Shown here: in pieces, positions 3,270-53,905 of the stretch
Layout: every line of letters begins with the position of its first letter
How positions within the stretch are numbered: the first letter of the stretch is position 1
Source of the DNA: Lota lota
Lineage: Eukaryota > Chordata > Actinopteri > Gadiformes > Lotidae
Assembly: GCA_026745465.1 (NCBI GenBank)
Contig: JACYXH010000585.1
Coordinates: 23,501 to 87,500 of the forward strand
Direction of reading: 5' to 3'
Length of the DNA: 64,000 bases
Notes under the pieces: generated by a model
Told to the model about the DNA's origin: nothing
The model's input: only the letters and a program-made list of their open reading frames with translations
The model's database searches: none
Program-made: the position numbers and the translations under genes

Positions 3270-3564
3270 TAGTCATACCACAGGAGGAACTACACAACAA
3301 ATCACAAGTACAGCTAATCGAATATGGGCTGTGATATTTCACAAATTATTTGTAAGTTATGATACAATATAAGACTATGTGACGCTGTATGGAACGTACG
3401 GAATGCTATTATTCATAGTATTTTATAAGAACTTAAATAACACGAGTTATTTGTTTCCATGTTTTACAATTCTATATGTAAATGACCCTGAGTATGACCC
3501 AGCATTCTTCAATCATTTGTTGTTGTTTTTTATGTTTATTAATCGTAGAAGTATTAAGGTACGG

Positions 3565-9415: not shown

Positions 9416-15713
<6,298 letters not shown>

Positions 15714-24184: not shown

Positions 24185-24491
24185 ATGTCGCAAGGCCAGA
24201 ACTTCCTCCCAAAGTTCCTCTTCGTCTCCAACCTGCTGAAGGCGGTGAAGATCCGCCAGCGTGTCCCCAACGATGTGGTGAAGCCTGGCGCCAGCGGGGG
24301 TCTCATGCACCACCTGCGCAGCATGCACCGCTACACGCTGGAGATGATCGCCATGAACCACTTCCCACAGGCCTTCCGCGAGGTCGTGCAGGCCGCCATC
24401 TTGGACCGGGCCATGCAGGTGTCCCTGGAGCAGGAGAAGAAGCTCAACTGGTGCCGGGAGGTCAAGAAGATGGTGCCCCTGCGGACCAACG
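24185..24491 (+). CDS. tnfaip3: tnfaip3 coding exon 1 (gene exon 2)
   Basis: ATG at 24185 (CGCCATGT). It encodes residues 1-102, including [22 protein letters not shown] and [16 protein letters not shown], all conserved in A20, and ends ACCAACG|GTAAGAA with one base over. Confidence 0.96.
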
Positions 24492-26139
24492 GTAAGAAGG
24501 GTTGTGTCATCAGGCACTTCTGTTTTTTGTTTGACTGATTCTATGGTTCCTAAGCATCAAGGAGCATGGCTGTCACTGTACAAATGAATCGCGGCTTGAC
24601 TAAGCCTGCGTCCATGTCTGTCAGAAACACCACACACGGTAGTACAAAGCAGATAATGAAAACACAAACTGAAATATTCTCAGATGCAGTATCCTTTTTG
24701 AGCCAGTTATGTGGACTGATATCCATCCCTCACATTCGATAAAGGTGGATATACTTTACGGTTAGTCTTACCATCTGGTGGACCCTGTGTCACTGTGATC
24801 TCCATGGAAATTCTCCTTCACCCCAAAACTATTGTTTTAAATGTGGCTCCGGGAACAACCCCTGAGGGAAGTTATGAGTAGAAGAAGCATTTGTCTGTAG
24901 TAAGTGTGTTTTCGGTTTTAGTTTTCATTTTGAGAACACTTCTGCGATGTCGGGGACCGAGTCTAGATGCTGTGACTCACCACTCGCATTACTTTAAATG
25001 ACAGAAAACAGAGTTTTTAACGTTTACTATAACAATTTAGAGATGTCGGGCAGGCCCGGCTGCCAAATCATCATTTTTGGGTTATCTTTTTATTTTTGGT
25101 AGATTGTGGTGGTGGCACTCTTGTCCTTTACAGATGTTTGGACACCTTTTCCACGGGGGTTCATCCACTGCCTTCATTACGTCATTACGTTTCCCTGTGA
25201 GTTTCCACAAATGTGTCATATGTCTGCGCAGACAGTGTGAGGGACGATGTGAGGGACGATGTGAGGGACGATGTGAGGGACGATGTGAGGGACGGTGTGA
25301 GGGACGATGTGAGGGACGATGTGAGGGACGATGTGAGGGACGATGTGAGGGACGATGTGAGGGACGATGTGAGGGACGATGTGAGGGACGGGAATACGTC
25401 CACTCGTTGTTTGTTGTTCTTTACCGGAAGTGCTGGTTTGTTGAAATCATCACATCCGTTCTTTCGGTCTGTCTCGTTTGTCTTTGTTTGATGACCTTAG
25501 TGACACTCTATTGATGATTTATTTTCTTGTCGATAATTCTTTAAATAGTTAATTCAGTTGTATTTACACGGCCACTGCTGGTCTAGTTTTAACTACTTTG
25601 AATTACTATTATTTTAGGTTCCCTGAGGTATAGAAGGTGTTATTTGATGATATCTAGATTATGTTTTTTAATTGGACAAATACATATTTCACAAGGTTGC
25701 CTTTGACACACATTTCAATAGGATAGCGATGGAGATGATTCACCATGTAAATGCTTACTCTCTTGTTTGATTAATGAAAAAAGCCTGTAAACAGTTTTTA
25801 TCATTTAATTTAGTTAAATAACGTTTGTGTCCTTTAAGATGTATTTGATATATACTCTGTAGTCATTAGCCTACATGGTCTATATCAGGGTACAATAGCC
25901 ATTTTACATATTTGTATTGCTCCTTATATAGTAGTGAACAGTGGCGTAGGCTGGAGCCGCGATTTAGTTTTACATTCATTTGAGGGAAAAGGCTTTAGGT
26001 GATCTCCACTTTAATTACCACTTTGTTATTAATTGTTAGTACCCTGGAACAATTCAGGTGTATGCTGGGTGATTCTGCTTGGATTGGAAAACTTAATGTG
26101 AAAGGGAATTCTGAAGTGATTACCACAAACACACACACA

Positions 26140-26210
<71 letters not shown>

Positions 26211-26370
26211 TTGTTTGTACTTCAGAAAGACCTCTGTCTGATAACTAATTCCTAGATTTACTGCAAGCACCCTGGATGTAATTTCCTGAGATAAAAATGG
26301 GACAGGGTTTAAAGTATGAGTGTCTAAAAGTCTGAAAGGGCCCAGTCATGACTTTGAGCAGAGGACAGAT

Positions 26371-26405
<35 letters not shown>

Positions 26406-29400
26406 AGATACTGTACATACAGAGAGGAGGTGGGACAGAAACGAAGCAGGAAGGAGGCTGCTGTGGTCATTTGGGTGATCGTCCATCCATCCTCATAGTC
26501 TCAGATCACACTGAGCCTCAGTGCTCTATTGGAGCATCTGAGTCTCAGATCACACTGAGAGCCTCAGTGCTCTATTGGAGCATCTGAGTCTCAGATCACA
26601 CTGAGAGCCTCAGTGCTCTATTGGAGCATCTGAGAGTCAGATCACACTGAGCCTCGGTCCTCTATTGGAGCATCTGAGAGTCAGATCACACTGAGAGCCT
26701 CAGTGCTCTATTGGAGCATCTGAGTCTCAGATCACACTGAGCCTCAGTGCTCTATCCTGATTTATTACTCAGATCTGACTTTTTGGTTTGGCTGTGCAAT
26801 ATATATTTTTAATGTAGCCAATATCAGAATCCATTGAGAACAGGTCACAGTCCGAACCAACCCGCATGCACGGAAGTAAACATGGAGGCAACTGAAGCCA
26901 TCGTTTACGGTTTAGTTTGTAAGTTGATGTTCAGTGGTGTTGAGACAGTGTGGACATTCTCACACAGGTGTCTGTTCGTCTGTTCATTTGTTTACTGGTA
27001 GCACCGCAGTTACCAGTAAACAAAAGGAAATTCATAGTGCCTATCTTTCCCTGTCTGAATCGGCGATGACCACTGCTGCAGAATCTTGTTTTGATCAACT
27101 TATCGTTTTTTCCTTTTCATTTCTAAAGCGGTTCAATTTGTGAAAACAAATGCTTTTTTTGATAAGGCAAAAAGCAGAACGACTATATCACGTAGGATTG
27201 CTGCGTGAACGTCGGTTGCTTTCGGATCCATCGGCCCGAGTTCCACTCTTGTTACGGCGGATCTTCAATGTAGCCAAAACGTTATCGAAGACACACGGCT
27301 TCCATAGTATGAGAGTACAAATAAGGTGGGTTGAACAGTTTGCAAGTTATGATGAAATTGCACTATATAACTAGCGCCATTCAAGAGAAAAATCACAGGC
27401 TCAATTGTGGCTGACTGATTGCCAAAAACGAAAAAACATAATTAATAAACACCATCCAATATTACTACTATTAACTAATATTTGTCCCTCCACTGATAAC
27501 CTCCATTGCAGCTGTGTCCCATGTTTGAATTCACCGAGTGTCTCTCTGCAGCCCAGAATTGTGACGTATATCGATCTAGAGTGAGTAAAAGTCGCATGAA
27601 TTCCGATATGACTGTTCAGACTGAGGTCACATTGCGAAACATCAGGTCGGTATCCGATTTAGGACCACATATGTACTTGGCCCCAATCAGAATTGAAAAG
27701 ATCCGATTCCATGGGATCCGTGCTGTTCACACTGTTATGAAACAATCGTTAATGAGTCACATACAGTATGAGCAAAAAGATTTTTGGGCCACTTTTGCTT
27801 GCAGTGTGTGAACTAGGTAACCTTCCTGAGTGTTCCTCCGCGGGTATTTCCCAGGCAGCGCATCATGTCTGTCATGTCTGCTAGTTGGAAATGTTTATTA
27901 ACTCCACACTGATGTTAGACTATAAGCAGAGACAACACTGAGTCTGAACCACGCACGCACATACGCGTTCGCCTACGCTGGATCCCCGTAATGACTCAAC
28001 TAAACATCTAAATCTTTTCCAGGTTAATGCCCTCTCTTTTGCTGATTATATTTGTGTTGGGCAATTCTAACACTGTAAATAGGTCTGCTGGAGAAACTGC
28101 ATGAGAAACGACCTGCAATTTCTCAAAGTCTTTAGAAAATAATAGATATTAAAAAGATAGGAAACACAGAAATACATGTATTTGTTATGTAAGTCTTATA
28201 ATTCTACCCTTATGTTATGTATTTGAATACAGATAATCAGATAATCCAGTGATTGCAGTGTCAACGGGATACTTATAGAATCAGGTCTGCTTTAATACGT
28301 TATCCGTTCATGCAAATGTGTATTCGTCTTTTGGACAACTCAACACTGCAGTCAGTGTATGTGACAACGACAGCGAGGCAAAACAACACTCTAAAATGAA
28401 GCCAGAGAAAGATTCCTCTGGCTTCATTTTAGAGTGTTGTTTTTAGACTTGGAGACTCCCCTCCACAGACAAAGGGTTGGGTGTTCTTAAGACATGTGAC
28501 ACAGTTCCTGTTGGAAAGCACTGGGATACAATGGGGATCCTTTATATTGCATACCACTATAACTTCTAAAATAGATGACCCAAGCCTCAATTGTTGAAGC
28601 CTATATTTATAGTTAGATCGCTGGGCCAAGGCCATTTATGCCTAGTCGACAACTCTGAGATGACCATTCAGGAAGCATGGAGGGTTTTGTGTGAGCAACG
28701 TAAACCATATGGTTTTGGAAGTTTTAAGAAGATATGTTTAATTCATTAATTTATTATTCATGTATTTATTTAATGGTCTGGATTGTAAGTCGAACTCACA
28801 TACGAGATTGCAGATATTGACTCACCTTTTTTAGGGCGTACCCAAATGTTCTTTTAACATAGCCTCCAAAAACAATTCCACTGATGGAATTCTTAAGCCT
28901 ATTTTTAAGTCGTCACATAGCTGAAAGTCCAAAGGAAACGTTTCTGTTGTACCTTTAAGTCAATTTGCAATGCTTCCTTAATTAGCTTATAGTGGCGTTT
29001 CATTTATTTTTTTCCCTGCTAAGATGCTAAAAGGTACTGATTAATACGATGTGGAGTGTTGCATTTCTATTAATCATATAAAGGAACCGGCAGAATAAAA
29101 ACTGGAAGTAGTTCAAGCCGCAATAATCAAGGACAGGTGCACACTTTGGTTTTTGTGTGTTTGTGTTTTCACTTTCAATTGTGTGGACTGTTGCTAAGTA
29201 ATGGAGAACTTTAATGATCTGCTTGTGAGAATGCATGTTACGCAAGAAAGACAAGCTTATTATTATCAAAGGTCATTAATTAACTGTTCCATTTGCTTCT
29301 GATGGCAAAATACACCACATTCCGCCCCGGCCCAAACTCCGCCCCTGTGGAAAGTCCGGGCCAGTTGAGTAGCATTGATGAGTCCTAACTTGGGATCCAG

Positions 29401-29406
29401 AGGGGG

Positions 29407-29477
<71 letters not shown>

Positions 29478-32400
29478 GGCAGTACTTGAGCCGGGAAATT
29501 CCTCTGTGTGCTTTGCAGCAGCGGGGTATTTCAGATCAACAAACACATACTTATTTATTCTGTTCTGTTTGACAACGGTAACAGGCCCGGACTGCATCAG
29601 AAAGAATAAATACTATTCCCGGATTTTGTAAGCGACCTAATAGGGACTTACTTATCTCCCTTTAATTTATCGTGTTACAACACATCCGATACCCTCACTC
29701 ACTATCATAAAGTGATTTGTTTCTCACAAAATGATACAGAGAAGTATTGAATGGCCTCCAGACAGATGTATTCTAGGTAGAGTTAAGGGGAAGTGGCGAG
29801 TAGTCTAACCACACAGTGTGTGTGTGTCTGTCGTGGCGGTGTGGGTCATAGACACCAGATAGTCTACCTGATAACCAGCCGAACGGCCTGGAAATCCCCA
29901 CGCTTTTGTTCCTCTCAAGTATGCACCTATTGTGTTTGTGTTCTTTGGTGTAGAAGCCGTGCACGTGCAAATCAAACGGCCTTCCGACTGTGGATAACAA
30001 AACCTGTGTTCCCACGGCCTGTGTTCTAGGGGACGGGAACTGCCTTCTCCACGCTGCGTCTCAGTACATGCTGGGGGTCCAGGACACCGACCTGGTGCTG
30101 AGGAAGGCCCTCCACGGGGTCCTGAAGGACACAGACACGGGCAGCTTCAGGGCTCGCTTCCAGGCGGAGCTGCTGCACTCTCAGGAGTTCACGCAGACCG
30201 GGCTGCGCTACACCACCACGGTACGCCAGGAGGAAAGCCTCCACCTTCAGCAAGACCTTTTAGCTTTTTATTAAACAATAAGCTACTTAGCTACTTAGCC
30301 TTTCCTCTAGAGGTGGATTGTGCGTATGCTTTGTATTCATTGGTATATAATTCCAAATGATGAAATAATCAAACCAAACTGTGTGTGTGTCTGTGTGTGT
30401 GTGTTTTTATGTATTACTGGACCATTTCCTAGAACTGGGAGGAGGAGTGGGAGAAAATTGTGAAGATGGCATCCCCAGTCTCCAGTAGCAACGGCCTCCA
30501 GTTTGATTCCCTTGAAGACATCCACATCTTCATCCTCTGCAACATCCTGCGCAGGCCCATCATCGTCATCGCAGGTACACCAGAAAAACAATTTCTGCAC
30601 TGCTGGACACGCCACTGTTTTTTTTTTTTTTTTTTTTTTACAGCTAATGGTATAAAGGCAAGCAATGGTGGTATCCTCCACTTTTATCCACTTATTCATT
30701 TAATTATTGTTCCAAATGACCCATCTGAGATCAGTTGGAATATGTTAAACAGTTTACCTCCTCACTCCAACTATTGTAATTATTGATAAATACTACTATT
30801 AATATTATTACAAACTTCAGAAAAGATATTCTCTCCTATGGGCATAAAAAAGAAAAGAAAAATGCACTTGCATCGTAAGTGATAGGTGAAAAAATACCCG
30901 AAAAGAAAATGTGGACGGCTGGCACCCATGTTAAACTCCACTGCTCCTGTGAACAGACCAGGTAGTGAGGAGCATGACGTCAGGCTCCTCCTTCTCGCCA
31001 CTGAATGTGGGCGGAGTCTACCTTCCACTCCACTGGCCGCCCACAGAGTGCTACAAGTACCCCATCGTCCTTGGCTATGACTCGCAGCACTTTGCACCCC
31101 TCATCACCATCAAAGACAGCGGGCCAGGTACGTGGGGTTCGCCAGACGAGGGTCCTCTTGCAGTGCTGCAAATAGGACACAACTCACAGCCCATTTAGTC
31201 CGTCGTATGTAGGTGCAAACAGGACATGAAAGGCAGAGCCACGCCACACAGTTATTATCTGCTAACTAATTAGCTGGTTTTGAAGCAGGGATGAACGTAA
31301 CGGTCAATAATGGGATTGTCGATAATGTAAATGATTGTATGTAGGGGGAGACACCGTGCATGCTAATCTATAGGACATGATGCACCTGGTTGGAAAGCTG
31401 GTAGGAATTCTGGAGAACGGCTCCACAGCAGTGGAGGGATGGCTGAATGTGGCTTGAACCTGGGTCATGTCTAAGAAGGGATCTATGTAATATACTGAAT
31501 ATCAAGTGTGATTGTTTGAGTGATTATTTGAGAACATTGGACATGATCGCGAACAGAGTCCGTAACACAGTAATCACCGTTTTCAAGCATGCCTTACGTT
31601 TTTTCGTAAATGTTTTACCCAGAAATCCGAGCGGTTCCACTGATCAACCCGGGGCGAGTGGGCTTCGAGGAGCTGAAGGTTCACTTTCTGATGGAGAAGG
31701 ACCAGCCGCAGAAGGACCGGCTGCTGAAGGACTACCTGATGCTCATAGAGATCCCTGTCATCGGCCTGGGCTACGATGCAACGCGCATCATCAACGCTGC
31801 ACGGTAAAAACATCACCCTGAAGATGCCGTCAATATACAACAATTCCATACGTAATACGTGTGATATACTAGTGACCCACGTGTGATATACTAGTGACCT
31901 ACGTGTGATATACTAGTGACCTACGTGTAATATACTAGTGATACATGTGTGATATACTAGTGACCTACGTGTGATATATTAGTGACCTACGTGTGATATA
32001 CTAGTGACCTACGTGTGATATACTAGTGACCTACGTGTGATATACTAGTGACCTACGTGTAATATACTAGTGATACATGTGTGATATACTAGTGACCTAC
32101 GTGTGATATATTAGTGACCTACGTGTGATATACTAGTGACCTACGTGTGATATACTAGTGACCTACGTGTGATATACTAGTGACCTACGTGTGATATACT
32201 AGTGACCTACGTGTGATATACTAGTGACCTACGTGAGATATACTAGTGACCTACGTGTGATATATTAGTGACCTACGTGTGATATACTAGTGACCTACGT
32301 GTGATATACTAGTGACCTACGTGTAATATACTAGTGATACGTGTGTGATATACTAGTGACCTACGTGTGATATACTAGTGACCTACGTGTGATATACTAG

Positions 32401-35400
32401 TGACCTACGTGTGATATACTAGTGACCTACGTGTAATATACTAGTGACCTACGTGTGATATACTAGTGACCTACGTGTGATATACTAGTGACCTACATGT
32501 GATATACTAGTGACCTACGTGTAATATACTAGTGATACATGTGTGATATACTAGTGACCTACGTGTGATATATTAGTGACCTACGTGTGATATACTAGTG
32601 ACCTACGTGTGATATACTAGTGACCTACGTGTGATATACTAGTGACCTACGTGTGATATACTAGTGACCTACGTGTGATATACTAGTGACCTACGTGAGA
32701 TATACTAGTGACCTACGTGTGATATATTAGTGACCTAACCTACGTGTGATATACTAGTGACCTACGTGTGATATACTAGTGACCTACGTGTGATATACTA
32801 GTGACCTACGTGTGATATACTAGTGATACATGTGTGATATACTAGTGACCTACGTGTGATATACTAGTGACCTACGTGTGATATACTAGTGACCTACGTG
32901 TGATATACTAGTGACCTACGTGTGATATACTAGTGATACATGTGTGATATACTAGTGACCTACGTGTGATATACTAGTGACCCACGTGTGATATACTAGT
33001 GATACATGTGTGATATACTAGTGACCCACGTGTGATATACTAGTGACCTACGTGTGATAAACTAGTGACCTACGTGTGATATACTAGTGACCTACGTGTG
33101 ATATACTAGTGACCTACGTGTGATATACTAGTGACCTACGTGTGATATACTAGTGACCTACGTGTGATATACTAGTGATACATGTGTGATATACTAGTGA
33201 CCTACGTGTGATATACTAGTGACCTACGTGTGATATACTAGTGACCTACGTGTGATATACTAGTGACCCACGTGTGATATACTAGTGACCCACGTGTGAT
33301 ATACTAGTGACCTACGTGTGATATACTAGTGACCCACGTGTGATATACTAGTGACCCACGTGTGATATACTAGTGACCTACGTGTGATATACTAGTGACC
33401 TACGTGTGATATACTAGTGACCCACGTGTGATATACTAGTGACCTACGTGTGATATACTAGTGACCTACGTGTGATATACTAGTGACCCACGTGTGATAT
33501 ACTAGTGACCAACGTGTGATATACTAGTGACCTACGTGTGATATACTAGTGACCCACGTGTGATATACTAGTGACCCACGTGTGATATACTAGTGACCTA
33601 CGTGTGATATACTAGTGACCCACGTGTGATATACTAGTGACCTACGTGTGATATACTAGTGACCCACGTGTGATATACTAGTGACCTACGTGTGATATAC
33701 TAGTGACCTACGTGTGATATACTATTGACCTACGTGTGATATACTAGTGACCTACGTGTGATATACTAGTGACCTACGTGTGATATACTAGTGACCTACG
33801 TGTGATATACTAGTGACCTACGTGTAATATACTAGTGACCTACGTGTGATATACTAGTGACCTACGTGTGATATACTAGTGACCTACGTGTGATATACTA
33901 GTGACCTACGTGTAATATACTAGTGATACATGTGTGATATACTAGTGACCTACGTGTGATATATTAGTGACCTACGTGTGATATACTAGTGACCTACGTG
34001 TGATATACTAGTGACCTACGTGTGATATACTAGTGACCTACGTGTGATATACTAGTGACCTACGTGTGATATACTAGTGACCTACGTGAGATATACTAGT
34101 GACCTACGTGTGATATATTAGTGACCTACGTGTGATATACTAGTGACCTACGTGTGATATACTAGTGACCTACGTGTGATATACTAGTGACCTACGTGTG
34201 ATATACTAGTGACCTACGTGTGATATACTAGTGACCTACGTGTGATATACTAGTGACCTACGTGAGATATACTAGTGACCTACGTGTGATATATTAGTGA
34301 CCTACGTGTGATATACTAGTGACCTACGTGTGATATACTAGTGACCTACGTGTGATATACTAGTGACCTACGTGTGATATACTAGTGACCTACGTGTGAT
34401 ATACTAGTGACGTACGTGTGATATACTAGTGATACATGTGTGATATACTAGTGACCTACGTGTGATATACTAGTGACCTACGTGTGATATACTAGTGACC
34501 TACGTGTGATATACTAGTGACCTATGTGTGATATACTAGTGACCCACGTGTGATATACTAGTGACCTACGTGTGATATACTAGTGACCCACGTGTGATAT
34601 ACTAGTGACCAACGTGTGATATACTAATGACCTACGTGTGATATACTAGTGACCTACGTGTGATATACTAGTGACCCACGTGTGATATACTAGTGACCTA
34701 CGTGTGATATACTAGTGATACATGTGTGATATACTAGTGACCCACGTGTGATATACTAGTGACCTACGTGTGATATACTAGTGACCTACGTGTGATATAC
34801 TAGTGACCTACGTGTGATATACTAGTGATACATGTGTGATATACTAGTGACCTACGTGTGATATACTAGTGACCCACGTGTGATATACTAGTGATACATG
34901 TGTGATATACTAGTGACCCACGTGTGATATACTAGTGACCTACGTGTGATAAACTAGTGACCTACGTGTGATATACTAGTGACCTACGTGTGATATACTA
35001 GTGACCTACGTGTGATATACTAGTGACCTACGTGTGATATACTAGTGACCTACGTGTGATATACTAGTGATACATGTGTGATATACTAGTGACCTACGTG
35101 TGATATACTAGTGACCCACGTGTGATATACTAGTGACCCACGTGTGATATACTAGTGACCTACGTGTGATATACTAGTGACCCACGTGTGATATACTAGT
35201 GACCTACGTGTGATATACTAGTGACCCACGTGTGATATACTAGTGACCTACGTGTGATATACTAGTGACCTACGTGTGATATACTATTGACCTACGTGTG
35301 ATATACTAGTGACCTACGTGTGATATACTAGTGACCTACGTGTGATATACTAGTGACCTACGTGTGATATACTAGTGATACATGTGTGATATACTAGTGA

Positions 35401-37910
35401 CCTACGTGTGATATACTAGTGATACATGTGTGATATACTAGTGACCCACGTGTGATATACTAGTGACCTACGTGTGATATATTAGTGACCTACGTGTGAT
35501 ATACAAGTGACCTACGTGTGATATACAAGTGACCTACGTGTGATATACTAGTGACCTACGTGTGATATACTAGTGACCTACGTGTGATATACTAGTGACC
35601 TACGTGTGATATACTAGTGATACATGTGTGATATACTAGTGACCTAGGTGTGATATACTAGTGATACATGTGTGATATACTAGTGACCCACGTGTGATAT
35701 ACTAGTGACCTACGTGTGATATATTAGTGACCTACGTGTGATATACAAGTGACCTACGTGTGATATACTAGTGACCTACGTGTGATATATTAGTGACCTA
35801 CGTGTGATATACTAGTGACCTACGTGTGATATACTAGTGACCTACGTGTGATATACTAGTGACCCACGTGTGATATACAAGTGACCTACGTGTGATATAC
35901 TAGTGACCTACGTGTGATATACTAGTGACCTACGTGTGATATACTAGTGACCTACGTGTGATATACTAGTGACCTACGTGTGATATACTAGTGACCTACG
36001 TGTGATATACTAGTGATACATGTGTCTGTATTTGCACGGGTCCAGGCTGGACGAGGGCAACCTGCCGGAGGACATGAACCTGATGGAGGACTACCTGCAG
36101 CTGGTCAACCACGAGTACCAGCGCTGGCAGGAGGACAAGGAGCAGGCCTGGGCCGCACAGCCCCAGCGCCCGCCCCCCTTCTCCGTCTCCCAGCTGTCGC
36201 TCATCGAGATCCGCTGCGCCACGCCGCGCTGCACCTTCTACGTCTCGGTGGACACGCAGCCCCACTGCCACGAGTGCTTCGAGAAGAGGCAGGCCACGGA
36301 CCCCCGGACAGAGGGGGGGGCGCTGCAGGTCAAAGGGGGCGGCGGCATGCAGACGGCGGTGGCCGTGCTGGGCGTCTCGGGCATGGCCGACGTGGTGAGC
36401 TGCCGGGGCGCTAGGAGCGGCAGCTCGCCGTCGTCGTCGTCGTCGTCGTCTTCCTCCTCCGCCGCCGCCGGCAGAGGGCCGGTCGTGACCAGCCCGCGCT
36501 CGGCGCCGCCCACCGCCCCGAGCCTCAGCCTGTACAGCGAGACGCACGCCATGAAGTGCAAGACGCCGGGCTGCCTCTTCACCCTCAGCGTGGAGCACGA
36601 CGGCCTCTGCGAACGCTGCTTCAACTCCAGGCAGGCCCCCGGAGGGCCCGCGGCACCCGGGGGCAGCGGGGCCGCCGCGGGGCCGCCTCCGGGCCCCAAC
36701 GGCGGACCCGTGGCCCCCCACGCCGGCCAGGGCGCCGGGTGGAGCCACTGGCCGGGTCGTGAGACGGAGGCGGAGCGCTGCGGCATGTGCAGGCAGGAGG
36801 CCTTAAGGACATTCAACGGCCTGTGTCCGCCCTGCATGCAGAGGCAGCAGGCGCCGGAGAGGGGGGAGCCGAGCCAGCCCAACGACCCGAGGACTGAGGC
36901 CTCGGCGGCGGCTGCGGCGGCGGCTGCGGCGGCGGCGGCCTGGAGCCAGGCCAGAGAGCCCGAGCGAGGGCCGTGCCTCACGCTGACCCCTGGCCACCCG
37001 TCGGCCTGGCAGACTCCGCTGGCGAGGCCCTGCAAGAGACACGGCTGCCAGTTCTTTGGGACTCCGGAGAAGTTGGGATTCTGTACTATCTGCTATGTAG
37101 ACTATCAGACCAACCACCGTAAGTCCTACCAATGCACCATGTACGTTATTTGTATTGTACCTCTGTGTGGTTCATGTGTGCATACACAACTGTTTTTGTC
37201 TTGCGATAGTCATTCAGCTAACTGCAGTCAGTCCTCCCCTTTTGCTCACGATTACGTTCCTCGTGTTTTTACAGACATGACCCCTTCAGCGGCCCCGGCG
37301 CAGAGCCGGCACGGCTCCGAGGCGGGCTTCCAGAACGCCTCACGCTGCCTGGGCCCCTGCTGCGGCGCGGTGGGCAAGGCCATGCTGGAGGGCTACTGCA
37401 ATAAGTGCTACGTCAAGGAGCAAAGCGCGCGGCTCAACCAGGCGGCCAGCCGCACGCCGCACTCCCCTCCCCCCGTCACGGTGGGTCCCGGTTCACCCGT
37501 CCCCACCGTTTGTGTTCGACCGCCCACGGTGGTCACACCCAAAGCACCCACTCCTTGGGTAGCCCGTAACGATGTGTCTCTCTCTGCTCCCCTTCTTTTT
37601 AACATTTCAGCGAGAGCGAGTAGCCAAGCCCAGATCCTCCCAGCAGTGCCAGACCCAGACCCAGACCCAGACCCAGACCCAGACCCAGTGCAGGCGGAGC
37701 GGCTGCAGCAACGAGTCCCCGGGCTGCACGGACTTGTGCCCAGAGTGCCACACGCGCGGCCAGGGCAGGGAGGGCGGGCGGCGGGCGCAGGCGCCCAAGG
37801 AGAAGTCCAAGCAGCGGTGCCGGACACAGGGCTGCGACCACTACGCTAACCAAGAGAAACAGGGCTACTGCAACGAGTGCGACCACTTCAAACAGGTCTA
37901 CCGGCGCTGA
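24185..37910 (+). CDS. tnfaip3: tnfaip3 (A20): ubiquitin-editing NF-kappaB inhibitor, complete, 8 coding exons
   Basis: Exons 24185-24491, 30030-30220, 30433-30574, 30957-31127, 31623-31803, 36046-37118, 37275-37480 and 37611-37910 join in frame to 2571 nt (856 aa; human 790). A20 removes K63 chains and assembles K48 chains on RIP1 and related signalling proteins, ending TNF and TLR signalling in the cytoplasm. The N-terminal OTU domain has the catalytic cysteine C107 in [10 protein letters not shown]258 in YDSQHFAPL and the partner D74 in ILDR. Seven A20-type zinc fingers follow: 388-408, 502-522, 576-594, 660-680, 713-733, 784-803 and 827-847. All Cys4 sets are intact, so the protein should be active. 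The extra length sits in linkers between fingers 1-4 (Ser, Gly/Pro and Ala tracts). The upstream kappaB sites imply induction by NF-kappaB. Confidence 0.97.
25237..25390. repeat. 12-bp minisatellite, 13 copies
   Basis: The unit GTGAGGGACGAT is repeated with one ACGGT variant and a partial last copy. As 12 is a multiple of three, several frames stay open on both strands; this is not a gene. Confidence 0.95.
26132..26208. repeat. (CACG)n/(CA)n compound microsatellite
   Basis: CA units, then about nine GCAC units, then pure CA. Another (CA)n run follows at 26371-26402. Confidence 0.9.
26495..26756. repeat. Minisatellite, unit about 44-46 bp, about six copies
   Basis: Copies share CAGATCACACTGAG, GCCTCAGTGCTCTATTGGAG and CATCTGAG, with a GAG insertion and a TCT/GAG difference between copies. 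Confidence 0.85.
26757..27815. mobile_element. Probable decayed DNA transposon (hAT-like), ends not defined
   Basis: The two flanks carry related text (CAGATCTGACTTTTTGGTTTGG on the left; GATCCGATTCCATGGGATCC and CTGTTCACACTG on the right) of the kind found in dispersed hAT-like fish elements. A 14-bp perfect hairpin lies within. No clear terminal repeat or target duplication was seen, so the limits are guesses. Confidence 0.35.
26987..27024. repeat. Perfect hairpin, 14-bp arms, 10-nt loop
   Basis: TTTGTTTACTGGTA (26987-27000) pairs with 27011-27024 across GCACCGCAGT. Confidence 0.95.
28380..28443. repeat. Perfect hairpin, 28-bp arms, 8-nt loop
   Basis: The left arm 28380-28407 (starting AAAACAACACTCTAAAATGA) is perfectly complementary to 28416-28443 across AAAGATTC. 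It lies in tnfaip3 intron 2 and would be a stable RNA stem if transcribed. Confidence 0.97.
29409..29473. repeat. (CA)n microsatellite
   Basis: About 32 CA units in tnfaip3 intron 2. Confidence 0.95.
30030..30220 (+). CDS. tnfaip3: tnfaip3 coding exon 2 (catalytic cysteine)
   Basis: Acceptor GTGTTCTAG|GGGACG. It encodes [20 protein letters not shown] and [10 protein letters not shown], with catalytic C107, and ends ACCACCACG|GTACGC in phase 0. Confidence 0.97.
30433..30574 (+). CDS. tnfaip3: tnfaip3 coding exon 3
   Basis: Acceptor CATTTCCTAG|AACTGG. It encodes [13 protein letters not shown] through [16 protein letters not shown], an OTU core segment almost identical to mammals, and ends GCAG|GTACAC. 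Confidence 0.97.
30957..31127 (+). CDS. tnfaip3: tnfaip3 coding exon 4 (catalytic histidine)
   Basis: Acceptor GTGAACAG|ACCAGG. It encodes [20 protein letters not shown] and [11 protein letters not shown] with H258, and ends GGGCCAG|GTACGT. Confidence 0.97.
31623..31803 (+). CDS. tnfaip3: tnfaip3 coding exon 5 (end of OTU domain)
   Basis: Acceptor TTTTACCCAG|AAATCC. It encodes [20 protein letters not shown] to [11 protein letters not shown], ending GCTGCACG|GTAAAA with two bases over. Confidence 0.97.
31858..36022. repeat. 22-bp minisatellite array of about 4.15 kb (about 190 copies) filling tnfaip3 intron 6
   Basis: The unit begins GACCTACGTG and ends TGATATACTAGT (22 bp). Variants: GACCCACGTG (E-box form), GATACATGTG, ATATATTAGT, TGTAATATAC, GAGATATAC and ACAAGTG. 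One copy carries an extra CTAAC-type insertion near 32737. The array starts about 55 bp after the exon 5 donor and ends about 23 bp before the next exon's acceptor, so it is essentially the whole intron. Array length in a single assembly may be compressed or expanded. Confidence 0.97.
36046..37118 (+). CDS. tnfaip3: tnfaip3 coding exon 6, large exon with zinc fingers 1-4
   Basis: Acceptor CACGGGTCCAG|GCTGG and donor CAACCACC|GTAAGT. It encodes [20 protein letters not shown] and then four Cys4 A20 fingers: CATPRC...CHEC (388-408), CKTPGC...CERC (502-522), CGMC...CPPC (576-594) and CKRHGC...CTIC (660-680). The third lacks the longer first loop, as in mammals. The exon is much more GC-rich than the rest of the gene. 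Low-complexity tracts (Ser about 460-469, Gly/Pro 540-562, Ala 618-629) enlarge the linkers. Finger 4 is the one that binds K63-ubiquitin in mammals. Confidence 0.97.
37275..37480 (+). CDS. tnfaip3: tnfaip3 coding exon 7 (zinc finger 5)
   Basis: Acceptor TGTTTTTACAG|ACATG. It encodes finger 5 (CLGPCC...CNKC, 713-733) and a Pro-rich tail, ending CCCGTCACG|GTGGGT in phase 0. A C-C pair at 717-718 gives one spare cysteine. Confidence 0.95.
37611..37910 (+). CDS. tnfaip3: tnfaip3 coding exon 8 (zinc fingers 6 and 7, terminal)
   Basis: Acceptor AACATTTCAG|CGAGAG. It encodes a (Gln-Thr)6 tract, finger 6 (784-803) and finger 7 (CRTQGC...CNEC, 827-847; the linear-ubiquitin-binding finger in mammals), ending DHFKQVYRR and stop TGA at 37908-37910. 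Confidence 0.96.
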   Translation, partial: RERVAKPRSSQQCQTQTQTQTQTQTQCRRSGCSNESPGCTDLCPECHTRGQGREGGRRAQAPKEKSKQRCRTQGCDHYANQEKQGYCNECDHFKQVYRR

Positions 37911-44185: not shown

Positions 44186-44246
44186 ATGAAACCATTGGGT
44201 TCTGACGAGGAAGATGAGCTTGCCGATTACCAGAAAAAGCTTAGAG
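44186..44246 (+). CDS. sdccag8: sdccag8 coding exon 1
   Basis: ATG at 44186; [20 protein letters not shown], ending CTTAGAG|GTAATA. The N-terminal DYQKKLR aligns with the human QYQRSLR, supporting this start. Confidence 0.85.
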
Positions 44247-45384
44247 GTAATATTTAGCGAACTCACTTTAGGAACAACTACTGGGGATAATGCTTATACA
44301 TCATATGCTCATTGCACTAACATAATTTAACGGAACCCCAAACCAGGTTGCAATGTTTTGTAAAAAAAAAAGGAGAGAAATGCATGAATGGTTCGTTCAC
44401 ATGTGAACGAAGCCACAAAGCGCTTCCCACCAATACAACCAGTAACTTATACCACCTGTTGTTGGCTTTCTGCTTTGCTGTCCAATGCAACAGTGCATGT
44501 GGCAATGGAAACCAATGCCCCAACATGCATGATGAAGATGTCTGGGTTCGTTTTTCAGAGCGGGCCAATCACAGTATCCAGCAGTTGAGCAGTGTTCTGT
44601 CACAGCAAAGCCCCGGTGAGGAAGAATCGGAGGTGGTAGAGGCATGCACCGCGGGTGGACCTCGCAGTGCAGCGGGAGGAAAGGACGATGCTGCGTGGAG
44701 CAAAAGATCCCAGAGCGAAGCAGGTGACTGGTGACTTCTGGTAACAGCCCATTACTCCCCCATGAGCTGATCATTGTACAATCAGTGCAAAGATGCACTG
44801 ATTGTATGTCATGGCAAATCATCTACTAGTACTACTAGTCCACCTATTGACACACCTTTTGGTGTATGTGGTCAAAATACGAAATGTGTGTGGGGCTGTG
44901 TTCCCTAGTCAACCAGTTGAGGACCTTCCTACTGAAGCAGCAAAAGGAAACATCTCCTCCTCTCTCTCCATCACAGAGATGCTCTCCCTCCAAGGTAACA
45001 ATGCTTCCCACACCCAGTTTAAACTAAAGCGTCTTCCGGCCTCTACTCAAATACATGTTTTCTTAAAAGGTCTTTGTCAAATAAGGATTTCCCATAAGTC
45101 CCCAGTCTTCCCATGTCTTCCACCTGTATATCGGCTTGTTTTGTGTTCTCCACATCTTGATGACAGCTCCCGCAGGGGGAGGGTGGCTCTGGGATGCCTG
45201 CCATTCAGGATTTAGTTCCAATCATTTACAACCAATCAGAGTACATCCAGCATCTGGAGGCTGAGGTCAAATTCTGCAAGGTGGGTTTTGCGGACTGTGT
45301 GTATTGATCTGTGTTTGTCTTTATGTGTGTGTTAATGGTCAGTACTCAGTGATGCACTCTATTCCTTGGCGGCCTGGGGATCTA

Positions 45385-45445
<61 letters not shown>

Positions 45446-45560
45446 CAGGAGGAGGTCCAGGGGATCAAGCAGAGGGTGCGGGTGGTTGTGGTGGAGAATG
45501 AGAAGCTGCAATCCAGTCTGAATAAAACACTGATGGACAAAACACCGCTGGAGTCCAAGG

Positions 45561-45621
<61 letters not shown>

Positions 45622-48600
45622 GGAAACTGGCGGTGGCGGTGGTGCCTCCGTTTTTCCAGCGATTATCATGTTGTTGTGATCTACAGATTTTCATAAATGT
45701 GCATTTACTGCATTTATTGTGCTAGTATCATCACCTTGCTTGGATTGCTTGCTTGTTCCTCAGCTCAATGAATTTCCAGGGGTCAAAAGTCATATAGGCT
45801 CCATACCAGGCAACAGGACGCCTCAGGGAATAGATTGCCAAACATGGAAGAATGAACTGGTGAGGTGACATCATCTTTCCTCTGTCAGTCATCTCGCATC
45901 TCCTAGCGGTGCCCGGCTCCTTACACACGGTCGTTGGTTTCAGTGTCTCAGACTATCTTTGTGTGTATGTGTGTGTGGTGTGTGCGCGCTTCTGTGCTTG
46001 TGTTTGTTACATGCTGGTGGCTTAGGAGCAGCTGAAGGCACTGCACCAGGCCCAGACTGAAACATTGGAGGCTCAGGTCACCTCTCTAAGGTCAGTAAAT
46101 CACTGCCCCAAAGCTATGATCCACTAGCCATTAAGCTACGATCCACTAGCCCCATAGCTAAGATCCACTAGCCACAAAGCTGCTATGCAATAGCCACAGA
46201 GCTACTATCCACTAGCCCCATAGCTAAGATCCACTAGCCACAAAGCTGCTATGCAGTAGCCACATAGCTACTATCCACTAGCCCCATAGCTAAGATCCAC
46301 TAGCCACAAAGCTGTGATGCAGTAGCCACAGAGCTACTATCCACTAGCCCCATAGCTACGATCCACTAGCCACAAAGGTGCAATGCAGTAGCCACATAGC
46401 TACTATCCACTAGCCCCATAGCTAAGATCCACTAGCCACAAAGCTGCTATGCAGTAGCCACATAGCTACTATCCACTAGCCCCATAGCTAAGATCCACTA
46501 GCCACAAAGCTGCTATGCAGTAGCCACAGAGCTACTATCCACTAGCCCCATAGCTAAGATCCACTAGCCACAAAGCTGTGATGCAGTAGCCACATAGCTA
46601 CTATCCACTAGCCCCATAGCTACTATCCACTAGCCCCAAAGCTACGATCCACCAGCGACAAAGTTACGATCCTATAGCCCAGTGTTTTTCAACGTCATAC
46701 AGGTGGTATGTGGGATTTTATTATTGAACAAATATATATTTATAATTTAAAATAAATATATTATCAATGTGGTTCAGTAAATATAGTATTATGACTGTTT
46801 TACTATATCAAAAATAGGGTTGCTTTGTGCATTGCATCATGTTTTCCATTGTAATGTTCTCCGTTGATGTTTGTGGTAATTTGTGTTTGATCAATTTCAA
46901 AAACGTTGTCCTATGCAAGATACAACTTGAGAAAAACCTTGTGTAGGGCTGGTAAAGTATTTGTATAGAAACACATGAATCATGTATATTACAATATACA
47001 ATATTAAAAGAATCATCAGTAATTTAAACACATGGTCCTGTGAAATGACAAATGTCTAAGTAGCACAGGATAGCAGGACTGGGTTTTTCTTTGGTAAAGC
47101 AGGAGTATTTCAAAATCACTTCTTAAGAGCACTGCCATTATTATTCATGGCTGGAATGTCGTGCCTCAGGTGACACAATCACAAAGACTCATTTAGTGTC
47201 AATAAGCAAAGCTTAGTGCCAGCCGTGTAGGCGTCCTAACCCGCCGCTAAATGACCCGTATCTGAAGACACTGTACGCCGCTTTGGATAAAAGCATCCGC
47301 TACACGACTTAATCACATGAAATCAAGATAAGATTGACTTGATCCATCCCTGGGGAAATAAAGGAAATAAGGGAAATAAATCAGTCAACATTCAATCTCA
47401 CGTTGTTACCTCATCTCTTGTCGTCCCTCGTGTTCCCGTGTGGGGCTAGGAAGGAGCTGGCGGTGAGTCAGAGAGGGGTGCGAGGAGGCGGGCAGCCGTC
47501 TGAGGCACAGAGAGGCGGCGGCGGCGGCGGCCAAGCTGAGCGCAGGAGCTCCTCGCGTCGGGGGCCTGTGTCTCAAGTGCGCCCAACACGAGGCCGTCAT
47601 GGCGGAGACGCACACCAACGTGCACGTGCAAGCCATCGATAGGCTCACCAAGTCAGTCAGAGGGGACACGCCCCCCCCCCCCCACACACACACACACACA
47701 CACATGCACCGCACGCACACTCGTATATTTAAACGTGGACATTTAGTAAACCACACTATTGCCAACGTCAGCAGTTGCCGACACATTTTCATATCTTCTG
47801 TGATTAAAGGTTCTTTTTATTTACACTTTTCTGATGTCACATTAATGAACCCGAAGTGAGTCTGAGGTTCATCATTAAAACAACACATTTTATTGATTTG
47901 AATTGAAAATGATACAATTGTGTAATGCACCATTTATGTTTGATCCAAACTGCTTATTTTACACATATCTTTCTCCATATACGTGTCTGAAAAAAGGTAG
48001 CGTGGCTAGCCTTCTTTAGTGAAACAGAGTGTCCAGCAGAACGCTACACATTTTCGAGGTTTGTTTCATATGGAACACAATGCGTTTTTCCCTCTGGTTC
48101 TGACTGTGTCTCCAGGGAGCGTGACGAGGTGATGGTGGCGCTGCGGTCCGTGCGTGCCAGCCAGGAGGAGAGCCAGCAGAGGGAGTGGTCCGCCTGTCTC
48201 CAGGTCAAACAGGCCGTGGAGATGGCAGAGGAGGCCAACCTGCATAAGGCCCGGGTAAGGAACAGACACACACACACACACACACACACGCAGATGCACA
48301 CACACACACACACACAGACTCACACAAACGCACACCAAACACACACACACACACACACACAGACTCACACAAACGCACACATGCACACACGCACACACAT
48401 ACAGACACAGACTCACGCCTGAAAAAGTATTGCATTTATTAAACAATGAATTCGCAATACAGCGTCACACCATAGATCACTAGGTCGCAGCCTGTAGCTG
48501 CAGTTCTCAATCAGGTATGATGTATGTGTTCAGTTTACTGGAGGACCTGAGGACGCATGTGTGTAGAACAATATGAGGACAAGGTCATGCATGGGGGTAC

Positions 48601-49238
48601 CCATATGTCCTCAGGTAGTTCCATGCGTGTGTGTATTTGTGGTGTTTGTGAAAACGTTATTTTATGCAAGTTTGTGTGTTACTATGTGTGTACAGCTGGA
48701 GCTGCAGTGCGAGCAGCTGTCCAGGGAGCTATGTCGTCAGAGGGAGCGGCTGGAGAGGGAGGCGCAGGGCCTGCAGGAGAGGCTGGCCGCGGTCAAGGAG
48801 GAGGTGCGCTGCGAGGCCCGCAGGGAGAAGGAGGAGCTGGCGCAAACGGTAAGCTCCACCTCCTCCTTTTTAATGAGCAAGCAGATTACTAAGGCCGGAC
48901 CGCAGGTACCACAATAGCCGGTTTTGATTGGCTTGGATGAGTCCTGGATGATGTAATCTGCAGTAATAGTATAATAATCCTTGGTTGTGAATTGTGAGAG
49001 ATTGAACAAAAACAGGTGTGTCTGCCAGTCATGTCATTTTAGTGATGTCATTTGTTAATTGAGGGAGTGTGTGTGTGTGTGTGTGTGTGTCAGGTGTCAA
49101 ATCTTTCCCAGCATGTAGCAGAACTGGAGGGACAACTTGATCGAGCAAACAGAGAGAGAACTTCACTGACCAATCAGCTTGAAGAAACCCTTCGAAAACG
49201 GACAAATCAGGAACAAGAGAGCACTAAGGTACTCAGCA

Positions 49239-49301
<63 letters not shown>

Positions 49302-50867
49302 CTCAGGCAGGCAGACATGCCTGCAAAAAAGAAATCCATCTCTGAAACGGAACTTTTACTATGTTGGAAACTCAGTTCAGTTCAGTTCAGTTCTTGGTGT
49401 TCAGTTCAGTTCAGTTCTTGGTGTTCAGTTCAGTTCAGTTCTTGGTGTTCAGTTCTTGGTCATCTAAATTAGGTGCAAGTATGATGGCATCACAAGCTAC
49501 CTTTGTCCTTCCCTATATAAACCATAAAGCTTTATACATGATATATGCTAAGTACGTTGCACAACAAGACTGTGTTACTATCTGTATGTGTGTGATGTTT
49601 TTCTGAGAGAAAAAAATACAATTAAAACATGTTTGGGTTTGATAGAGATTCTATGATGTGAATGATAGTATGTATGGTATGCTTTAATGAAGAACCAGTT
49701 GGATATGTGTCTTCATATTTTAGACCAGTGTTAGAAATATAATTACCATTTCCTATGATTGTAGACTGATAGTATTGGAGGAAAAGAGGGAAAATTCACT
49801 GTTCAAGGACCAGATCAGGATGTACCACTGCAGAATCAATTTTAAACACCACTAGGTGGCACCAAAAGCCTTTCTAAATTCATTAAAAAAGAATAATTTG
49901 TTAATAGGGTTATGTTGGCGCTTCATTGTCAACATAAAAACTATTAACGTAAATTATTTATTTTAATCACTCGGTCACTTATTTGTTATAGATTATTTCC
50001 CATGTTTAATAACTAAGGATATGATTTGATAAAAAATATGAATTAAAGCATCAACCCTGTACATTGAGCTTATTTTGATGATTTTGATGACATTGCTTGT
50101 TTTCCTCTGAAGAACTTGCAACCCCATCTTTGTTCACAATCAACTTGATAGGTTACAAAGAACACATTGCTAAGTGTCTGAATTGGACTATCTTAACAAG
50201 GCACCGATGATTCTGTTTTAGATGTGTGGAGACCTGCGTTACCAGCTGAGCCAAGCCGTGATGAAGAGAGAGGAGACGCAGAGGGAACTGCGGGAATTGG
50301 CCACCAAGACCTCGAGACAGACTGAACGCGCCTCACAGGTTGCTCAGTGATGTCCGACAGTGTGAAAACTCATAATTTCTACTTTGGACAATCATAACTT
50401 GAGAGGAGGATTCGTTATTTAATTATTGAACACGTTTGTGATTCAACCCCTTGAGTGTTGGAACGTAAAGTTTTAAATTGCAAAAGTATTGCACATTAAA
50501 CTCAGTTTATAAACAAATATTGGAAGTAAAGGCACTGCTTTGTGACATGAATATGTCATCTACGCTGCTGTGTGATCAATTTACGTTAATTCCCTGTGAC
50601 TCGGGCAAGGTTTTAGTAGCCTGAGCCGTTTTAGGTTGCGTGTTTGTTTAAAAGGGCATACGGGGCCTTGTTGTGTAAGACTTTCTCACCTCGCCTCCCC
50701 CCCTGCCCTCTCTCTGTGGGACAGGAAGTGGAGAAGCTGAGCTCTGTGCTGGTTGGCTGTCAACATCGCCTGGAGGCAGTCCAAAAGGATGGGAGCCAAT
50801 GGCAGACTGAAGCCTTGAGCCTGGCAGAACAGCTGGCAAATGCCCAGCGCCAACTGCACCTCACCAG
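44186..50867 (+). CDS. sdccag8: sdccag8 (centrosomal/ciliary coiled-coil protein), 5' 13 coding exons, 3' end not in window, one frameshift
   Basis: Exons: 44186-44246, 44559-44723, 44909-44994, 45176-45280, 45449-45559, 45764-45859, 46026-46090, 47450-47651, 48116-48254, 48696-48848, 49094-49228, 50222-50338 and 50725-50867. All junctions are GT-AG and phase-compatible. Together they give about 525 codons of a protein of about 710 residues in mammals. SDCCAG8 (CCCAP/NPHP10) sits at centrioles and the ciliary base; human loss causes nephronophthisis and Bardet-Biedl-type disease. Diagnostic blocks: [32 protein letters not shown] followed by [27 protein letters not shown] and QLHLT. Nearly all the rest is heptad-rich coiled coil. 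Exon 47450-47651 has one base too many. The C-terminal exons were not found up to 64000. Confidence 0.93.
44559..44723 (+). CDS. sdccag8: sdccag8 coding exon 2
   Basis: Acceptor GTTTTTCAG|AGCGG. It encodes [17 protein letters not shown] and an acidic, low-complexity stretch, ending GCAG|GTGACT. The SIQQL block matches the mammalian SIHQL. Confidence 0.85.
44909..44994 (+). CDS. sdccag8: sdccag8 coding exon 3
   Basis: Acceptor TTCCCTAG|TCAACC. It encodes [20 protein letters not shown] and PSQRCSPSK, parallel to the mammalian VNQLKDLLRQQ...SPSRRR, ending CCAAG|GTAACA in phase 0. Confidence 0.88.
45176..45280 (+). CDS. sdccag8: sdccag8 coding exon 4
   Basis: Acceptor CTCCCGCAG|GGGGAG. It encodes [20 protein letters not shown] and KFCK, the best conserved block near the N-terminus, ending TGCAAG|GTGGGT. 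Confidence 0.95.
45449..45559 (+). CDS. sdccag8: sdccag8 coding exon 5, flanked by (GT)n on both sides
   Basis: Acceptor GTGTTCAG|GAGGAG follows a (GT)n tract (45389-45443). The donor CCAAG|GTACTG opens into another (GT)n (45564-45620). It encodes [20 protein letters not shown]. Length 111 nt, phase 0-0. Confidence 0.93.
45764..45859 (+). CDS. sdccag8: sdccag8 coding exon 6 (less conserved)
   Basis: Acceptor TTGTTCCTCAG|CTCAAT; donor AATGAACTG|GTGAGG. It encodes [20 protein letters not shown] and 12 more residues. Its position matches the variable region between coiled coils in mammals. Phase 0-0 and clean splice sites support it; direct similarity is weak. Confidence 0.7.
46026..46090 (+). 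CDS. sdccag8: sdccag8 coding exon 7
   Basis: Acceptor GTGGCTTAG|GAGCAG; donor CTCTAAG|GTCAGT. It encodes [21 protein letters not shown], a coiled-coil segment, with two bases carried to the next exon. Confidence 0.85.
46108..46690. repeat. 22-bp minisatellite in 66-bp higher-order units (sdccag8 intron 7)
   Basis: The 22-bp theme CCACTAGCCxCATAGCTAxG AT repeats about 26 times. Three variants (CCCCATAGCTAAGAT, CACAAAGCTGCTATG, CACATAGCTACTAT) cycle as 66-bp blocks. It begins only about 18 bp after the exon 7 donor. Confidence 0.92.
47205..47380. repeat. SINE-like or dispersed repeat tails
   Basis: CGCTTTGGATAAAAGCATCCGCTA (about 47279-47302) is a tail motif seen all over teleost genomes. Next to it, AGATAAGATTGACTTGATCCATCCCTGGGGAAAT resembles another common fish repeat end. 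The full structure is not resolved. Confidence 0.5.
47450..47651 (+). CDS. sdccag8: sdccag8 coding exon 8, with one-base insertion (frameshift)
   Basis: Acceptor GGGGCTAG|GAAGG; donor CTCACCAA|GTCAGT. The first frame reads KELAVSQRG; after GGGG at 47475-47478 the homologous frame is [20 protein letters not shown] then [20 protein letters not shown]. The exon's outer phases (1 and 2) fit only if one base is removed, so the extra G is the anomaly. The [12 protein letters not shown] block and [13 protein letters not shown] are near-identical to mammalian SDCCAG8. It may be an assembly homopolymer error or a real lesion. Confidence 0.9.
48116..48254 (+). CDS. sdccag8: sdccag8 coding exon 9
   Basis: Acceptor GTCTCCAG|GGAGCG; donor GCCCGG|GTAAGG. 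It encodes [20 protein letters not shown] and on to EEANLHKAR, strongly conserved. A compound CA array (48270-48415) follows in the intron. Confidence 0.95.
48696..48848 (+). CDS. sdccag8: sdccag8 coding exon 10
   Basis: Acceptor GTGTACAG|CTGGAG; donor CAAACG|GTAAGC. It encodes [20 protein letters not shown] and further coiled coil; 153 nt, phase 0-0. Confidence 0.94.
49094..49228 (+). CDS. sdccag8: sdccag8 coding exon 11, flanked by (GT)n
   Basis: Acceptor TGTGTCAG|GTGTCA, directly after a GT run (49068-49090); donor ACTAAG|GTACTC, with (GT)n from 49243. It encodes [20 protein letters not shown] and 25 more residues; 135 nt, phase 0-0. Confidence 0.94.
49370..49460. repeat. 24-bp tandem repeat built from (TTCAG)n, about four copies
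   Basis: TTCAGTTCAGTTCAGTTCTT plus GGTG repeats in sdccag8 intron 11. Confidence 0.9.
50222..50338 (+). CDS. sdccag8: sdccag8 coding exon 12
   Basis: Acceptor TTCTGTTTTAG|ATGTG; donor TCACAG|GTTGCT (a weak donor: +3 is T). It encodes [20 protein letters not shown] and on to [10 protein letters not shown], aligned with the mammalian VCGEMRYQLNK block. Confidence 0.92.
50725..50867 (+). CDS. sdccag8: sdccag8 coding exon 13 (last one found)
   Basis: Acceptor GGGACAG|GAAGTG; donor CTCACCAG|GTAGTA. It encodes [20 protein letters not shown] through [10 protein letters not shown], with two bases over. The mammalian protein continues for about 190 residues that I could not locate downstream. Confidence 0.93.
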
Positions 50868-53226: not shown

Positions 53227-53905
53227 GTTTGTGTGTAGACTCCTCTAGTCCAGCTGGTCAGCGGTCAGTGTATGTTTTGTGTGTAGACTCCTCTAGTCCA
53301 GCTGGTCTGCGGTCAGTGTATGTTTTGTGTGTAGACTCCTCTAGTCCAGCTGGTCTGCGGTCAGTGTATGTTTTGTGTGTAGACTCCTCTAGTCCAGCTG
53401 GTCAGCGGTCAGTGTATGTTTTGTGTGTAGACTCCTCTAGTCCAGCTGGTCAGCGGTCAGTGTATGTTTTGTGTGTAGACTCCTCTAGTCCAGCTGGTCT
53501 GCGGTCAGTGTATGTTTTGTGTGTAGACTCCTCTAGTCCAGCTGGTCAGCGGTCAGTGTATGTTTTGTGTGTAGACTCCTCTAGTCCAGCTGGTCAGCGG
53601 TCAGTGTATGTTTTGTGTGTAGACTCCTCTAGTCCAGCTGGTCAGCGTCAGTGTATGTTTTGTGTGTAGACTCCTCTAGTCCAGCTGGTCAGCGGTCAGT
53701 GTATGTTTTGTGTGTAGACTCCTCTAGTCCAGCTGGTCAGCGGTCAGTGTATGTTTTGTGTGTAGACTCCTCTAGTCCAGCTGGTCAGCGGTCAGTGTAT
53801 GTTTTGTGTGTAGACTCCTCTAGTCCAGCTGGTCTGCGGTCAGTGTATGTTTTGTGTGTAGACTCCTCTAGTCCAGCTGGTCAGCGGTCAGCGTACGTTG
53901 GGTAT
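53227..53905. repeat. 48-bp minisatellite, 14 copies
   Basis: Each copy contains CTCCTCTAGTCCAGCTGG (starts 53240, 53288 and so on, to 53863), then TCAGCGG or TCTGCGG and TCAGTGTATGTTTTGTGTG. One copy lacks a G (period 47 at 53624-53671). As 48 is divisible by three, a repetitive open frame results. Confidence 0.97.

Follow-up and report, generated by a model that had tools for sequence, protein, structure and literature searches.

A single surplus base in a conserved exon of sdccag8 in the Lota lota assembly is most likely a consensus insertion error

A conserved exon of sdccag8 is interrupted by a one-base frameshift in the genome assembly of Lota lota, which raises the question of whether this fish carries a truncated ciliopathy gene or whether the assembled sequence is wrong. 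SDCCAG8, also named CCCAP, is known as NPHP10 and BBS16. If the break is real, it would be a naturally occurring fish example of a ciliopathy gene that is truncated or rescued by splicing; if it is an error, it carries only the caution that gene-loss claims from this assembly need reads, especially in GC-rich exons. The 64,000 nucleotides analyzed here, referred to as the window, correspond to C585:23501-87500 of an assembly that represents a 575-Mb genome in 867 contigs. Contig C585 has 123,717 bases, and the 15 other contigs with listed lengths measure between 64 kb and 9.8 Mb.

Exons 1-13 of a teleost sdccag8 were identified on the plus strand of the window between positions 44186 and 50867 (Table 1). 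The search used local tblastn with an approximate human SDCCAG8 sequence as the query and returned eight collinear plus-strand matches with E <= 4e-4, which correspond to exons 4, 5 and 8-13, as well as two weak matches to exons 2 and 3. A 13-exon model was built from these matches and splice signals, with exons 1, 6 and 7 placed by eye. All 12 introns of the model are GT-AG. The phase is broken at exon 8 alone, while the other 12 exons are open with matching phases, those following exon 8 being shifted by this one base as assembled. In intron 7, directly after exon 7, window positions 46101-46680 are taken up by a tandem repeat whose 66-base unit recurs about 8.8 times and is itself made of a 22-base unit.

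Table 1. Features of sdccag8 in the window (window positions) and of two comparable breaks on other contigs of the same assembly (contig positions).
Feature	Position	Strand	Evidence
sdccag8 exon 1 (ATG)	44186..44246	+	by eye and splice signals
sdccag8 exon 2	44559..44723	+	model; weak tblastn match, E 1.3
sdccag8 exon 3	44909..44994	+	model; weak tblastn match, E 0.58
sdccag8 exon 4	45176..45280	+	tblastn and model
sdccag8 exon 5	45449..45559	+	tblastn and model
sdccag8 exon 6	45764..45859	+	by eye and splice signals
sdccag8 exon 7, leaves phase 2 (..TCTAAG/gtcagt)	46026..46090	+	by eye and splice signals
sdccag8 exon 8, 202 nt, frame broken, GC 0.68	47450..47651	+	model, Pfam, GC
internal AG in exon 8 (gagtcag/AG), candidate acceptor	47470..47471	+	model, splice scores
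GGGG run with surplus base	47475..47478	+	sequence, model, Pfam
TAG met by assembled frame	47640..47642	+	model
sdccag8 exon 9, intact	48116..48254	+	tblastn and model
sdccag8 exon 10, intact	48696..48848	+	tblastn and model
sdccag8 exon 11, intact	49094..49228	+	tblastn and model
sdccag8 exon 12, intact	50222..50338	+	tblastn and model
sdccag8 exon 13, intact	50725..50867	+	tblastn and model
celsr-like exon break, one extra base (L039)	C705 about 1245331	minus	alignment to C77
celsr-like exon break, one extra base (L040)	C13 about 237558	minus	alignment to C77

Exon 8 is flanked by ctag/G and CAA/gtcagt. Exon 7 exits in phase 2, which is also the phase in which exon 9 is entered, so the length of exon 8 should be a multiple of three, yet it is 3x67+1. 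The exon is entered as (AG) plus the frame of exon 7, and the homologous continuation, which includes DRLT, lies one base on; the frame as assembled meets the TAG at codon 294 of the exon 1-13 model. Both frames belong to the SDCCAG8 family by their matches to CCCAP (PF15964, cut-off 27 bits). The upstream piece matches profile positions 3-252 up to its residue 238/239 (183.6 bits, 7.7e-54), and the downstream piece matches positions 254-535 from its residue 1 (320.7 bits, 2.5e-95). These two pieces join without a missing residue, which shows that exactly one base is surplus, and this base is one of the four G of the GGGG run. The 63-residue peptide obtained by continuing the upstream frame through exon 8 has no Pfam match at E<=0.1. 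The splice phases and the CCCAP match in two frames therefore confirm what a preliminary description of this locus had claimed, namely a one-base frameshift in this exon, a frame switch at the GGGG, and outer splice phases that fit only with one base lost.

One possibility is a real, young frameshift allele of this individual, either heterozygous or fixed in a lineage. Such an allele would truncate Sdccag8 near residue 294, with the loss of most of the coiled coil and probably nonsense-mediated decay. The extra base is present in the assembly while exon 8 is otherwise normal, a recessive allele in the heterozygous state could end up in a primary assembly, and similar truncations are described for humans and mice in the accessible part of PMC12346347. 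However, the same part of that paper describes mouse truncation models with BBS-like phenotypes and male infertility, and no further decay was found in the sdccag8 exons. No other lesion is present in the 1,575 coding nt; if the gene is dead, the neutral divergence since the break would therefore be at most about 0.012-0.023 at the 5% level, a bound of about 1-2% that rests on assumed indel rates and varies with the rate chosen. The lack of further lesions indicates that the break is very young, not real, or not harmful. A unitary pseudogene would show several lesions or lost conservation, whereas a single lesion was found in 13 modelled exons. An older pseudogene is ruled out by the same lack of other lesions and by a match near the end of the CCCAP profile, which persists further along the contig. 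Among the literature matches listed (sdccag8 in fish, its loss and splicing, and indels in fish assemblies), the titles and the opening parts of the abstracts do not report this lesion. Taken together with the breaks elsewhere in the assembly described below, we consider a real allele unlikely.

Exon 8 was found once in the genome. No second copy or haplotig with the other base state was found, and all nine CCCAP matches are on C585. A TAG is present in two of these nine; both of these matches extend past exon ends, so the TAGs are intronic. The match near the profile end is located outside the window (C585:112958-113074), about 39 kb past exon 13, where it covers profile positions 659-697 of 703 and is 57% identical to the approximate human SDCCAG8 sequence over 37 residues. 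Exons for profile positions of about 538-658 were not found; 15,000 bases of C585 read N. The N blocks are of round length (C585:87501-100000 and 105001-107500) and follow exon 13, so that the missing sdccag8 exons may be hidden there. Exons of akt3 follow sdccag8 on the opposite strand, and the accessible part of PMC5812623 describes a tail-to-tail arrangement of these two genes in mouse as well. Upstream of sdccag8, tnfaip3-like and perp-like exons were observed at window positions 24194-37901 and 9416-15710, respectively. The window also contains a 48-base unit repeated 14 times in tandem with 98% matches (53228-53899), and open frames at 6320-6854 that by eye resemble a fragment of a non-LTR retrotransposon reverse transcriptase.

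Conserved giant exons elsewhere in this assembly, sampled from the SACS, cadherin and DUF4683 families, were examined for comparable breaks. A SACS-like exon on the minus strand of C524 consists of open frames of 2,502 and 1,149 codons (loci L022 and L023), which are in two different frames and overlap by 28 bases (C524:109942-109969). They are collinear with residues 68-2666 (30% identity) and 2726-3505 (26% identity) of the SACS protein encoded on C772. Between the aligned ends, 176 nt stand for 59 C772 residues, which leaves no space for an intron at the frame change; homology does not fix precisely where the shift lies. This break has a net shift of +2/-1 and a GC content of 0.39 over 1 kb nearby; both features make it a misfit to a purely GC-linked insertion error. 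One more C772 match in the SACS search carries an internal TAG.

In the cadherin search, 150 matches were scored of 1,331 candidates. From those listed outside C643, four split or short-looking regions (C705, C13, C96 and C572:1036501-1042500) and three whole-looking ones (C77, C572:799501-804500 and C129) were fetched. C705 and C13 each have a frame change inside cadherin repeats, and the best solved-structure match of the pieces flanking these breaks is CELSR1. Alignment to the unbroken celsr-like exon of C77 joined residues 3-837 and 838-1197 for C13, and residues 10-752 and 753-1186 for C705, and in each the join holds exactly one surplus base. The GC content of the 1 kb near the break is 0.685 in C705 and 0.70 in C13, as compared to 0.57 for the unbroken C77 frame, so that GC-rich sequence is common to these two breaks and sdccag8 exon 8. 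No frame switch distinguishable from an exon end was seen in C96 or C572:1036501-1042500. Since C705 and C13 were chosen for their split-looking frames, this small sample gives no unbiased error rate, and no rate is claimed.

Most of the conserved giant exons examined are unbroken, showing that errors are not everywhere, a point in favor of a real allele. The C772 SACS exon forms one open frame of 3,899 codons. On C643, 54 of the 150 listed cadherin matches (1,331 candidates) represent 51 exons, each open for at least 784 codons and together 126,783 nt long; their layout suggests that they are putatively protocadherin-like. The whole cadherin frames are open over 1,197 (C77), 1,147 (C572:799501-804500) and 1,258 codons (C129), and among these three only C77 has the celsr-like DANTHRP motif. 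The frames that match DUF4683 extend over 1,247, 1,418 and 603 codons without a stop. In the window, the start of the GC-rich tnfaip3 exon (36032-36900, GC 0.73) is unbroken, as are the GC-rich sdccag8 exons 9 (0.67) and 10 (0.69). The open tnfaip3, C643, C772 and DUF4683 exons argue against errors being frequent in general. In most of the places examined the assembly is thus sound, yet it has isolated frame breaks, GC-rich conserved exons among them.

Given the role of the celsr family, it is implausible that one living fish carries two broken celsr genes, so that the C705 and C13 breaks are most simply explained as consensus errors. Exon 8 of sdccag8 resembles them in having a single surplus base within GC-rich coding sequence. 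Comparable lesions were found in other conserved exons at C705, C13 and C524, those at C705 and C13 being one added base each in a GC-rich celsr-like exon, and these findings favor an error over a real allele in sdccag8 also. The gapless joining of the CCCAP frames, the 12 other open exons in the window and the persisting match to profile positions 659-697 lend further support. We conclude that the break is most likely a single-base consensus insertion error in a normal, functional sdccag8. One base would have been inserted wrongly in the GC-rich exon 8 in the consensus of this contig-level assembly, and the fish itself would lack the extra base and make full-length Sdccag8. The preliminary description had offered a truncating allele or a homopolymer assembly error as alternatives; its gene, exon and frame analysis and its choice of alternatives were right, and the comparable breaks now tip the balance toward the artefact. 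Its term homopolymer is loose, as the run has only four G and the celsr-like breaks lie outside long homopolymers.

Alternatively, the extra base could be real yet tolerated if splicing bypasses it, whether through an internal acceptor of exon 8 or by in-frame skipping of the exon. The 22-nt-shorter and the exon-8-skipped products are both open through exon 13 with no base change needed. If the internal AG at 47470-47471, a predicted acceptor, were used, 22 nt would be dropped and the frame restored at the cost of seven residues, as many as make up a coiled-coil heptad; this product matches CCCAP over its whole length with 493.2 bits. The lost residues are within the conserved profile, though, and their removal costs about 11 bits relative to the sum of the two pieces (504.3 bits), while skipping of exon 8 would delete the 15-residue stretch of the homologous continuation. 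Other internal AGs, which would start the exon at 47496, 47505 or 47511, would likewise restore the frame at a cost of 15, 18 and 20 residues, respectively. With approximate weight matrices, the acceptor of exon 8 has the lowest score among the 12 modelled ones (-5.9), the internal AG is about equal (-6.2), and the AG with exon start 47511 scores higher (-2.8). However, the normal acceptor and that at 47470-47471 both score close to the median for the 3,851 AGs of the window, which means that the matrices discriminate poorly and the scores say little. The donor of exon 8, at 1.5, is not exceptionally weak, as four of the 13 donors score lower. We regard a splicing bypass as very improbable, and slightly more so its specific form in which splicing has moved to the acceptor 22 nt downstream, removing the frameshift with seven residues, which would be a natural splice rescue of a ciliopathy gene.

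By inspection, acceptors 4 or 7 nt into exon 8 were rejected as they meet a TGA at 47464-47466, and a donor-like GTGAGT at 47463 (score 4.9) is not favored as it would leave a 13-nt exon. Inspection, which was not systematic, revealed no fitting site for compensation at the exon 7 donor or at a more upstream acceptor. Programmed +1 ribosomal frameshifting at AGA GGG GTG has the exact +1 geometry in its favor and nothing else, and the CCCAP Pfam profile runs through this position without one. Programmed frameshifting is not known from the SDCCAG8 family, and we consider this explanation extremely improbable.

The closest known system is SDCCAG8 / CCCAP itself, with which the fish gene shares the PF15964 profile (3-252 and 254-535 of 703), the difference being one extra base in exon 8 as assembled. 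The accessible part of PMC12346347 describes human c.1339-1340insG and mouse E451GfsX467, both one-base insertions that truncate SDCCAG8, and mouse Y236X, which is also truncating. Judged against that source, the break in the fish is likewise upstream of the C-terminal coiled coils; it is upstream of both insertions and somewhat downstream of Y236X. The human and mouse truncations are reported there as alleles, whereas the fish break is known from the assembly alone. Consensus indel errors in long-read assemblies, as described in the accessible part of PMC7263694, offer the other comparison. While the run in sdccag8 is only four bases long, the breaks found here are, like those errors, isolated small shifts in conserved genes, with several per assembly.
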